Part shown: positions 16,910 through 28,470 of the stretch, piece by piece
Position numbering within the stretch: position 1 is the first letter of the stretch
How the letters are laid out: every line of letters starts with the position of its first letter
Source of the DNA: Rhodospirillaceae bacterium
GTDB lineage: Bacteria; Pseudomonadota; Alphaproteobacteria; MPNO01; UBA2964
Assembly: GCA_002720855.1 (NCBI GenBank)
Contig: PBIN01000015.1
Location: 434,001 to 498,000, forward strand
Reading direction: 5' to 3'
DNA length: 64,000 nucleotides
The notes under the pieces: generated by a model
The model's input: the letters and a program-made list of their open reading frames with translations, nothing else
Databases searched by the model: none
What the model was told of the DNA's origin: nothing
Translations under genes and position numbers: made by a program

Positions 16910-18070
16910 ATGAGCGATGAAGAAAATTCGGAGATGGTCGCCACAAGCGATAGCTCAGCGCCACCTACGCAACACCTTCTCGAATATTCCGGTGAAGCTA
17001 AGGCGTTCGGTTGGCTAGTCTTTAAGAATACGCTCCTGACGATTATCACGCTCGGGTTCTATCGCTTCTGGGCCAAAACCCGCCTGCGCAAATATATTTG
17101 GGGCAACCAGTCTGTATTTGGCGAAAAGCTCGAATATACCGGCACTGGGAAAGAATTATTTTTAGGGTTTTTAGTTGTTTTAGCTGTGTTGGTGCCCTTA
17201 GCAATTATTTTCAACGTTGTTAGTTTTTACATACAAACAAAAGGCGGCGTCGCAGCGATTCTTATTTTCCAGTTGGCCTATGTAATTTTGTTCGTTTTTC
17301 TATATGGATACGCTGTATTGCGCGCTCGACGCTATTAACTTTCCAGAACTCAGTGGCGCGGCATCAGGTTCGCACAAGCCGGAGATCCAAAAAGGTACGG
17401 GTTTCAATTTTTAGGACTTGGTTTTCTAGCCATTATTACTTTTGGAATGGCTATTCCTTTTATGATGATTCGGCTCCATAAGTATCGCGTTGACAATACA
17501 TACCTTGGCCAAGAACGGTTCACTTTCGATGGAAAAGCAATAGATATATTTTGGCAATGGTTTCTATGCGGGGTGCTCGCTTATATTACTCTCGGATTAT
17601 CAGTCCTGTGGTTTATGGCATTTTTGATCCGCTATACAGTTTCCAAGACGAGATTTGGTCCTCTAACATTTTCACTACCGGTAAAATTCAGTGACTACGC
17701 AAAGATTTATGTCCCTTTCGCACTAGTTGCGATTGTTGCTTATTTGCTGTTTGCCATTTTGATATTTGCCACCGCATCTGGGCCTGTGTTTCAGGCGGCC
17801 GGCATAGATGTCGGAGATCTACCAGTTCCGAAAATTGATCCAATTATCGCTTACGTTACGTTTTTCCTTATCGGTATTCTCACTCCTACGATTACTGCAA
17901 TGATGATCACTCACCGTATTTTCAGCCTATTTGCAGACAAGTTGGAAACCGAAGGCGAAATCGATTTAGATGCTTTCGTGCAAAATGCGCAGGAGGTTTC
18001 GAAAAGAGGAGAAGGACTCGCAGATGCGCTCGATGTCGGAGGCGGCGCTGGTATAGAGGTCGGGTTGTAA
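16910..18070 (+). pseudogene. DUF898 (YjgN-type) membrane protein gene split by one in-frame TAA
   Basis: Residues 1-142 (16910-17335) and the stretch after 17338 are in the same reading frame and together form one complete DUF898 protein of about 385 residues; only a TAA at 17336-17338 interrupts it. Translation after the stop continues the family sequence at once (LSRTQWRGIRFAQAG), joining the RARRY end of the first half. The protein has several membrane helices and two GFYRFWAKTRLRKY-like repeats (second: RLHKYRVDNTYLG). A restart at ATG 17447 could give a 207-residue second half. No frameshift is needed. Either a young nonsense mutation, a sequencing error or recoding. The M48 peptidase follows 2 bases later. 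Confidence 0.8.
17336..17338 (+). other. In-frame TAA inside the DUF898 coding sequence
   Basis: The triplet TAA follows the codons for RARRY and precedes those for LSRTQWRGIRF, where family members carry a sense codon, often basic or aromatic. A single base change from AAA (Lys), CAA (Gln), TAT or TAC (Tyr) would restore the frame. There are no other stops over 385 codons. I see no nearby stem-loop or selenocysteine-type element that would argue for programmed readthrough. Confidence 0.85.
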
Positions 18071-18072
18071 TC

Positions 18073-19146
18073 TTGTCCGCGAACGGTTGGTATTACGATG
18101 GACAATCATCTGCTCGGAATGCAGTAACGGTTTCGCTCTTTCCGGACCGTATGGAAATTCGAGACATCGACGATTCTCAAATAATCCAGCGCTGGTCACT
18201 CGAACAGCTGTGGTGGGCACACCCGCCAGAACTAGGTGGCGCAGGACGCATAGCATTACAGGGCGATAATGCCGCTCGGTTGGAACTGGACGACCAAGAA
18301 ATCATCGCGGCAATTCGGCAAGCCTATCCTGCAATCGATAAAGCAGGAAAAGACAAAGGCGGGCGCCGCAGACTGGCCCTCGTTATTGCGGCCTCAGTCA
18401 CTTCAATCGGGGTTGCTGTTTTCCTCGCCGCAGCCATTTTACCCGGCCTGCTGGCTCCCTTCATTCCAGCGTCCGTTGAAAAATCAATGGGTGAAGCAGC
18501 GCTTAAACAGGTTATCGACTACGTTGACGCTAAACACTGTACGAAGGGAAACGCTCTTGATGCTTTGGAAAAGTTCCGCCTCAAATTGATATCTGCCACC
18601 GACCAGAATGAACCAATTCAAATAACCGTTCTAAACTCGAAGATGATCAACGCGCTTGCGGCACCAGGTGGTCAAATCGTCGTTTTTAAGGGGTTTATCG
18701 ACTTCGCCAAAAATTCCGAGGAGTTTGCAGCAGTTGTGGCACACGAGTTGGGCCATATCGTTCATCGTCACCCCACAAAGGGATTGATACGCCATATTGG
18801 CTTAACCGGAACACTAGATTTATTGTTGGCCGGCAGCAGCCAAGGCATTCTTGGTACGGCGTCTGGCCTGCTATTACGAACAGCCTATTCTCGCGACGCG
18901 GAACGCGAAGCTGACGACGCAGCGCTTGACATTCTGAAACAGGCTGGGATCAGGTCAACCGGGTTGGTTTCCACATTCAAAAGGTTCGATAAAGAGCTCC
19001 CGAAGATGCCGGAGGCCCTGAAACATTTCTCAACGCATCCGCTGAGCAAGGAACGGGCGGCGCGACTTTCGGCGCTCGTTTCCGATAAGGGCTCTCCCGC
19101 TATGTCAGCAGAGGACTGGCAGGCCATCAAAGAAATGGGCGATTAA
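18073..19146 (+). CDS. M48 family metallopeptidase with N-terminal membrane region
   Basis: A 357-residue protease. Residues 1-95 form a small globular domain (a strand-rich WYYDGQSS start common in M48 partners of DUF898), a membrane helix lies at about 98-123, and the peptidase domain follows with HELGH at about 224-228 and the glutamate ligand in SRDAEREADDAAL (about 275). It resembles BepA/YcaL/Oma1-type M48 proteases that act on envelope proteins. The start is TTG at 18073, two bases after the DUF898 stop, so the two genes are coupled and a premature stop upstream may lower its expression. No earlier ATG makes sense. Confidence 0.85.
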   Translation: MSANGWYYDGQSSARNAVTVSLFPDRMEIRDIDDSQIIQRWSLEQLWWAHPPELGGAGRIALQGDNAARLELDDQEIIAAIRQAYPAIDKAGKDKGGRRRLALVIAASVTSIGVAVFLAAAILPGLLAPFIPASVEKSMGEAALKQVIDYVDAKHCTKGNALDALEKFRLKLISATDQNEPIQITVLNSKMINALAAPGGQIVVFKGFIDFAKNSEEFAAVVAHELGHIVHRHPTKGLIRHIGLTGTLDLLLAGSSQGILGTASGLLLRTAYSRDAEREADDAALDILKQAGIRSTGLVSTFKRFDKELPKMPEALKHFSTHPLSKERAARLSALVSDKGSPAMSAEDWQAIKEMGD

Positions 19147-25584: not shown

Positions 25585-28383
25585 CTATTCAGCGGCAGAA
25601 AGGCGGTCAACCGCACGCCATGCGGGGAAACGAATTGAGACCGATGTGCCTTGTCCGACGGTACTGTCTACCGACAGCGTTCCGCCATGTAATTCAACAA
25701 GAGATTTGGTTAGTGGTAGCCCCAAACCTGTTCCTTCGTGACGCCGGCTAAGGGTGCTATCCACCTGACCAAACGGTATTAAAGCCTGGGCGAGGTCCTC
25801 CTGGGCCATCCCAATACCGGTATCGCGAACGATCAGTTCAATACTGTCAGATTTATTGTAACTCGCATCCACCGATATCGAACCGCCCCGCTCCGTAAAT
25901 TTTACAGCGTTGCTGAGTAAATTAATGAGAATTTGTTTGATTTTTCTCTCGTCGCCCCGAAAGCGGGGGAGCGTCTCAACTATTGTAGATTGTAGTTCCA
26001 ATCCATTTTCTTCAGCGCGTGGCGCTACGACGCGCAAACATCGTTCCACACAGGACCCAAGGTCAAATTCCTCTTCCGAAAGATCCAGCTTGCCAGCTTC
26101 GATTTTTGATAGGTCCAGAATATCGTTGATCACGTCGTGGAGATGGCTGCCGCTCTGATAGATATCCCGAGCATAATCTTTGTACTGTTCGTTCCCCAAC
26201 GAGCCAAACATTTCACGCTGCATAAGATCGGAAAATCCAATAATTGCATTCAACGGTGTTCGCAGCTCGTGGCTAATGTTAGCCAGAAATTCTGTCTTTG
26301 TGCGGTTTGCTATATCGGCTTGTTCCTTGCTTTTTATGAGCGTTTCTTCGGCTTCAATTTGTTGGGTTACGTCCCGCATAACGACGATACCGCCTCGCTC
26401 ACCCTCCCAGTCAATTGCCGCCGCCCCGACCTCCGCCCAGAACCAGCTACCATCCAGACGCAACCGTTTTTGACGCATAAAGACCGTACGGTTGCCTTGC
26501 TCAATGACTAAAATCTGCCGTTCCGAAACAGTTTCATGAAATTCAGGATGCGTCAGATCGAGCGTCTCTTTACCCATGAGTTCGTCTGGTGTGTTGGCTC
26601 CGAAGAGATTTAAAGCCGCTTCATTGGCCAGGACGATATAACCACCCTTATGAACATAGATTGCATCTGGAAGTAGATTGACCAGCGCCCGATATCGTTC
26701 GTCGCTCTCGCGAAGCCTTGTTTCGCTCTCCCGCCGATCGGTTATATCGGCTGTCAGTGTCAGCGTGAATCCCTCGGATGTACGATGTTCGGTTATAGTG
26801 AACCAACGATCACCCATCGCGCGAGATTCGTAGGAACCGCTGGCCTCAAGATGATTTCTGCGCCGCTCGGCTTTCCACTTCTCAGCAATTTCACTGCCGT
26901 GTTGATTGCTGATTTCGTCCGCAATACCGCCGATGACTTTTTCAAATGACACGCCCTCTGTAATAACCGCTGGGTCGGGGTGATAGGTCAATACGCGGTG
27001 GTTCCAGAGGACCAGCTTGTCATCTTTATCCCAAAGCATGAAGCCGTTGGGCATTGTGTCAATTGCCTGTAACAACCAATGGTGGGCGCGTCGGGCTCGC
27101 AGTTCGGTTTCCCGCTGCTCGGTCACGTCCATCAAAACGCCATCCCAAATGATAGCGCCATCGCTGCGTTTATGCGGACGCCCTGTAGAACGAAGCCACC
27201 TTGTGTTGCCATCATATCTCACGAATGGCAAATCCATTGTATAAGGGGTCAAAGATTCCGCAGACTCTTGCATGCGCCGATAGTACTCATCGCGATGATC
27301 AGGCCGAATACAGTCAATAAACGGGGCAAGATCTTTTTCCAGATCCTCTGGAGAAAATCCGGTGATCTCCTCAATGCCGGCGCTGGCATAGCTATAGAGA
27401 AGTTTGCCATCTGGCTCCATTACTCGTTGAAAAACAGCGCCAGGCATATTGTCTGTAACAGCACTAAAACGTCTCTGTGCCTCGGCATATGCCTCTTCAG
27501 CGTGTTTGCGTGATGTAATGTCCCGAAGGACCCCCAAAAATGCAGGCGCGCCTTCCCACTCGATATAAGTTGCGACGGTTTCCACATCGACAATCGATCC
27601 ATCGAGCCGAATGCGCCGCTGTTCAACCGGGTCAAGCTGGTTTTGCTTATTGAGAACGGTTCGCCGTCTTTCAAGCTGTAAAGCCCGATCTTCCTCAGGA
27701 ATAAAACTCAGGGATTCTTTACCGATCAGCTGATCGTCAGTTTCAGCACCGAACAATCGAAGAGCGGCCGGATTTACAAAAACAATTCGTTCATCAATGT
27801 GAATAATGACGGCGTCCGGCAGGTCCTCCAATAACTCGCGATGGAGATTCTGGCCCTTCAAGAAATGCGGCTCCAAATCTCCATTCTTGATTCTCGGAAT
27901 TTCCTGGCTCTCATTTATATCCGCACGACCCGACACGTCACGGATGTTGGACATGACAGCGGGCTTGTCGTCCCACACAATTGCTGAAGCGGAAACATCC
28001 GCAATGTAAGTGCTACCATCAATGCGAGTTCTTGGCTGTTCGGCGATTTCCAGCGGAACAACTGACTTCAGAATTTCATCAATTTGCCTGTCTGCCTCCT
28101 GCCGCACGTCCGGTCTGATATATTGTGTTATCAATGTACCCAGGATTTCATCGGCCGAATTGGCGCCAAACAATTCAACGCCACTCGAATTGATATAAAC
28201 AATGCGCCGATTGTCATCATGAACGACCAAGGCGTCTTTGGTCAGGCTGGCAAATTGATCGAAGATTTCATTGTATGGAATACAAGGTCCAGCCGCTTCG
28301 CGAAGGCAGGCGATTTCATCCTCTAGTGCCGCTATTTTCGCCTTGAGTTCTGCCTTTTCAATTTGAAACTCTTGACTACTCAT
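25585..28383 (-). CDS. Soluble PAS-domain sensor histidine kinase (five PAS domains)
   Basis: A 932-residue kinase without membrane helices or signal peptide. A short N-terminal coiled coil (about 7-30) precedes five PAS units at about 40-150, 180-292, 305-425, 432-552 and 560-675. The dimerisation/phosphotransfer region is at 694-760 with the conserved FLANISHELRTPLN (H705). The ATPase domain has the N box NLLSNAVKF (821-829), DTGIGMA (854-860) and GTGLGLP (884-890). It lacks a receiver domain, and no response-regulator gene lies in the window, so its partner is remote. The ligand or redox signal read by the PAS domains is unknown. Confidence 0.93.
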   Translation of the reverse strand: MSSQEFQIEKAELKAKIAALEDEIACLREAAGPCIPYNEIFDQFASLTKDALVVHDDNRRIVYINSSGVELFGANSADEILGTLITQYIRPDVRQEADRQIDEILKSVVPLEIAEQPRTRIDGSTYIADVSASAIVWDDKPAVMSNIRDVSGRADINESQEIPRIKNGDLEPHFLKGQNLHRELLEDLPDAVIIHIDERIVFVNPAALRLFGAETDDQLIGKESLSFIPEEDRALQLERRRTVLNKQNQLDPVEQRRIRLDGSIVDVETVATYIEWEGAPAFLGVLRDITSRKHAEEAYAEAQRRFSAVTDNMPGAVFQRVMEPDGKLLYSYASAGIEEITGFSPEDLEKDLAPFIDCIRPDHRDEYYRRMQESAESLTPYTMDLPFVRYDGNTRWLRSTGRPHKRSDGAIIWDGVLMDVTEQRETELRARRAHHWLLQAIDTMPNGFMLWDKDDKLVLWNHRVLTYHPDPAVITEGVSFEKVIGGIADEISNQHGSEIAEKWKAERRRNHLEASGSYESRAMGDRWFTITEHRTSEGFTLTLTADITDRRESETRLRESDERYRALVNLLPDAIYVHKGGYIVLANEAALNLFGANTPDELMGKETLDLTHPEFHETVSERQILVIEQGNRTVFMRQKRLRLDGSWFWAEVGAAAIDWEGERGGIVVMRDVTQQIEAEETLIKSKEQADIANRTKTEFLANISHELRTPLNAIIGFSDLMQREMFGSLGNEQYKDYARDIYQSGSHLHDVINDILDLSKIEAGKLDLSEEEFDLGSCVERCLRVVAPRAEENGLELQSTIVETLPRFRGDERKIKQILINLLSNAVKFTERGGSISVDASYNKSDSIELIVRDTGIGMAQEDLAQALIPFGQVDSTLSRRHEGTGLGLPLTKSLVELHGGTLSVDSTVGQGTSVSIRFPAWRAVDRLSAAE

Positions 28384-28470
28384 GGGTTAAACGCATCCCT
28401 GCTTTCAGCGATATTCTTTTAGTCGATTCATTAAAATTCCGAGTTCGTTAACAACTCGTTAACCAGTTCG

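Follow-up and report, generated by a model that had tools for sequence, protein, structure and literature searches.

The window, the whole analysed stretch of 64,000 nucleotides from a Rhodospirillaceae bacterium (genome G000), carries a DUF898 gene that is interrupted by one premature in-frame stop codon. The best reading of this locus is a nonsense pseudogene of recent origin, or else a sequence error, within an operon that the genus is shedding; it is an ordinary case and no new way of reading genes. A recent nonsense mutation, representing the first lesion of an unneeded DUF898-M48 operon, was given a probability of roughly three in four. The features of the locus are as follows:

16910-18070, + strand: whole DUF898 gene, from ATG 16910 to the stop TAA 18068-18070
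16910-17338, + strand: 5' portion of the gene, with 142 codons ahead of the premature TAA; PF05987 match with E 5.1e-28
17336-17338, + strand: premature in-frame TAA, replacing a Gln codon of relatives
17339-18070, + strand: 3' portion of the gene, conserved and with an open frame of 243 codons; PF05987 match with E 3.4e-29
17447-17449, + strand: first in-frame ATG past the stop; Met not conserved, no Shine-Dalgarno sequence
18073-19146, + strand: M48 peptidase gene with N-terminal DUF7092, intact; TTG start two bases after the DUF898 stop

Each part of the interrupted gene matched the DUF898 family (PF05987), also named the YjgN family, in a profile search on its own. The 5' part covered profile positions 2-109 and the best stretch of the 3' part covered positions 111-185, with scores of 98.6 and 102.5 bits on the two sides of the stop (cut-off 28), and no further stop was present among the 243 codons 3' of the TAA. 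A chance continuation of the reading frame past the TAA was excluded because both pieces match PF05987 independently. Coordinates and family matches thus agree with the initial annotation, which had described a single TAA with an intact frame on either side and an M48 start (TTG 18073) two bases past the DUF898 stop. The locus should be annotated as one disrupted DUF898 gene and not as two genes. No second DUF898 copy was found in G000 (3.58 Mb, 15 contigs, 98.2% complete), the two matches in this genome both deriving from the 16910-18070 locus.

Alignment with DUF898 homologues, which the initial annotation had proposed, revealed Gln or Arg but never a stop at the position of the TAA. Among 82 aligned matches from 80 named homologues, Arg occurred 71 times and Gln 11 times; the absence of the lesion from all 80 homologues is what is expected of a nonsense-type pseudogene. 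Two conserved peptides, one of which adjoins the stop column, had retrieved 223 homologues, and these 80 are the best of them; badly decayed genes are therefore under-sampled in the set. At the codon level, CAA was found at this column in four genomes of the same genus (G001, G002, G003, and G004) and CAG in the genus member G007 as well as in the family relative G009. The TAA can be reached from the genus codon CAA by one C-to-T transition.

The part of the gene after the stop shows no decay. Comparison of G000 with G002 gave pN/pS values (NG86) of 0.147 for the part preceding the stop and 0.276 for the part following it, and the corresponding values were 0.247 and 0.335 for G000-G007, 0.220 and 0.374 for G000-G003, and 0.497 and 0.514 for G000-G009. 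The pairs of intact genes behaved in the same way on the two sides of the stop position (G002-G007, 0.196 and 0.355; G002-G003, 0.191 and 0.384; G007-G003, 0.186 and 0.319). Profiles were also built from 36 further homologues; against them, the downstream part of G000 scored 172.0 bits (170.7 in G002, 162.5 in G007, and 177.4 in G003) and its upstream part 150.5 bits (160.5, 152.4, and 160.9, respectively). Relaxed constraint past the stop, a feature of older pseudogenes, is thus not visible in G000, and a very young lesion would look alike. In simulated neutral drift a further stop arose at a median of about 0.03 substitutions per site (95th percentile 0.11-0.14), and synonymous divergence between G000 and G002 is saturated (pS 0.84-0.88). 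Since drift adds stops this fast while the synonymous sites are saturated, a dead gene must be recent; the same saturation hides any change that took place late on the G000 branch. The undecayed downstream part therefore leaves three readings: the stop arose recently compared with the divergence from G002, it is not real, or the downstream part is still translated. The constraint data alone cannot choose among these three.

The fate of the operon in related genomes argues for the first of them. An M48 gene follows DUF898 in the flank at 76 of the 80 named loci, which makes the pair an old one. Nine genomes of the genus were searched, and the pair was found broken in four of the six that carry DUF898. 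In G000 the stop lies in DUF898 and M48 is intact; in G001 (72% complete) DUF898 has a TAG and a frameshift, and the orthologous M48 gene was not found; in G003 (86% complete) DUF898 is intact and M48 disrupted; in G004 (67% complete) DUF898 carries a frameshift and M48 contains a TAG and a TAA. G002 and G007 possess intact pairs. Neither gene was found in G005 and G006, which says little at their completeness (71 and 69%), and in G008 (96% complete, 8% contaminated) no DUF898 was found and the sole M48 found was a distant one (32% identity over 65 residues). The initial annotation had stated that several further disruptions in sibling genomes would make the locus a plain pseudogene; at the level of the genus, this was borne out by the operons of G004 and G001 and by M48 of G003, but not by G002 and G007. 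Some of the sibling lesions, in part those of G003 and G004, may be assembly errors, although the nonsense codons there are not of the indel kind. A Fisher test of broken operons (4/6 in the genus versus 2/76 at the other named loci, p 1e-4) is a hint at most, the two sets having been sampled differently (G000 was chosen for being broken, and retrieval of the 80 loci required intact conserved peptides) and the M48 stop in L076 sitting in a poor alignment. Across all 61 genomes, 21 had DUF898 matches, and at least six of these showed a stop or frameshift by eye (G000, G001, G004, G010, G019, and G053). No relative was confirmed on viral contigs. The repeated loss of the pair within one genus suggests that it works as a unit which some lineages no longer need.

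In the favoured course of events, a recent C-to-T change in the single-copy DUF898 gene would have produced the TAA from a Gln codon, most probably CAA, provided that the strain truly carries this base and that it is fixed there. Translation would then end after 142 residues, and the fragment, lacking about 60% of the predicted fold, would probably be inactive. The coupled M48 gene would probably be translated less. If the pair is little needed in the genus and has been lost repeatedly, the locus would be a nascent pseudogene at its first lesion. Such a course resembles the nascent bacterial pseudogenes treated in PMC13345370 in its one point lesion, the frame conserved on both sides and the gene broken or missing in relatives; the comparison is one of sequence. 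According to that paper, small changes are assumed to be usually the first to break a gene, and few pseudogene products were detected in two endosymbionts. The same paper cites Salmonella "pseudo-pseudogenes" (Feng et al., 2022), where peptides from about two-thirds of roughly 160 pseudogenes were found in a survey; the DUF898 gene is likewise formally broken and could still yield some protein. Several points speak against a recent nonsense mutation: the lack of relaxed constraint, which functional readthrough or a wrong base explains equally well, the intact M48 gene, and the fact that general decay in G000 is not advanced.

How common such lesions are was assessed by comparing 280 kb of G000 with 300 kb of G002 (204 G002 genes matched, 170 at ≥60% identity). 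Of the full-length conserved genes in these 280 kb of G000, DUF898 alone had a clean in-frame stop, and this rarity indicates that general decay is not advanced. In G000 a frame change breaks up one 834-residue ORF of G002, and the reverse comparison flagged seven frame changes against G002. Each of the two genomes thus has isolated young lesions in the order of one or a few per 200 genes. Stops in seeming non-coding extensions or antisense ORFs were also flagged, judged by eye and left uncounted; an example is positions 27696-28454 of the G000 stretch, whose G002 counterpart was flagged in G004, G003, and G007 too. Outside the window, a remnant of 45+45 residues around a TAG was seen on the minus strand of G000 (contig C15, about 603585) where G002 has a 782-residue ORF; it appeared Lon-like, a label taken from the sequence and not from a search. 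In G002 itself, a clean in-frame TAG lies in a conserved gene some 146 residues long (contig C1, about 2639522), similar to the DUF898 case. Moreover, a large conserved gene in G004 (L142, 4330-6594, + strand), sensor-kinase-like by eye only, has three in-frame stops (TAA, TGA, and TAA) and highly conserved flanks.

Four options had been offered for the stop, namely a sequencing error, a recent nonsense mutation, readthrough and two-part expression; the second fits best, and the last two have no signal beyond the undecayed downstream part. An error of sequencing, assembly or strain consensus, by which the organism would have a sense codon and an intact DUF898 gene, is the rival that survives best and seems a minor possibility. 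It would account for the undecayed downstream part, for a stop one base off the genus codon CAA and for the rarity of clean in-frame stops in the sampled 280 kb, but there is nothing unusual in a mutation by transition at a CAA codon, and nonsense codons occur in the same operon of sibling genomes.

Gln is a plausible near-cognate residue at UAA. It is conceivable, but improbable, that the nonsense codon is tolerated, low-level misreading of UAA yielding enough full-length protein for the gene to stay functional. The constraint apparent downstream, the Gln of relatives and the presence of Gln tRNAs (TTG and CTG) in G000 are consistent with this, but the stop is absent from every homologue, no tta, cta or tca anticodon was found among the 42 ARAGORN tRNAs of G000, and the RNA past the stop is not unusual. 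Rfam gave 43 tRNA matches. ARAGORN confirmed 42 of them, each of which has a sense anticodon, but not the remaining one, a weak match on contig C8. A suppressor tRNA or recoded stop was rejected, there being no stop anticodon and DUF898 itself terminating with TAA. A stimulatory stem-loop was likewise rejected, since folding of the first 120 bases from the stop onwards is ordinary (-31.1 kcal/mol, z -1.79), with 10 of 200 shuffled sequences doing equally well. Programmed readthrough would call for a stop and context conserved in orthologues, but none of the 80 homologues has the stop, and for a suppressor tRNA or a stimulatory RNA structure, neither of which was seen among the confirmed tRNAs of G000 or in the RNA past the stop; nothing supports programmed readthrough. 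Quite improbable is also a TAA stably kept as a translational dimmer, with UAA misread mostly as Gln, enough DUF898 and coupled M48 protein made and the downstream half under selection.

The read-through protein was modelled from 40 sequences (mean pLDDT 88, pTM 0.84). The predicted fold (16910-18067 read through) shows a helix-plus-beta-hairpin unit repeated about four times, with residue 143, the position of the stop, near the end of helix 114-145; no fold relative was found in the PDB at E ≤ 0.001. The restart position named by the initial annotation, 17447, is indeed the first in-frame ATG, GTG or TTG after the premature stop and corresponds to residue 180, in the loop that separates predicted helices 160-176 and 182-195. 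A restart there is unlikely, and two-part expression, in which the C-terminal part would work with the N-terminal part and M48 coupling would be kept, is the least probable reading: the ATG falls in a predicted loop and the relative G053 has a split DUF898, but no Shine-Dalgarno sequence precedes the ATG, Leu aligns with its Met in all five relatives aligned (G002, G007, G003, G009, and G027), and the two parts combined would lack residues 143-179, that is, the predicted hairpin 147-156 and helix 160-176. A sigma-70 consensus scan of the + strand between 16700 and 19300 gave no internal promoter. In G053 (L009, reverse complement), DUF898 is divided between two reading frames whose stop and start overlap as ATGA; a Shine-Dalgarno-like GGGAAGG precedes the overlap, and this is possibly a true two-gene DUF898.
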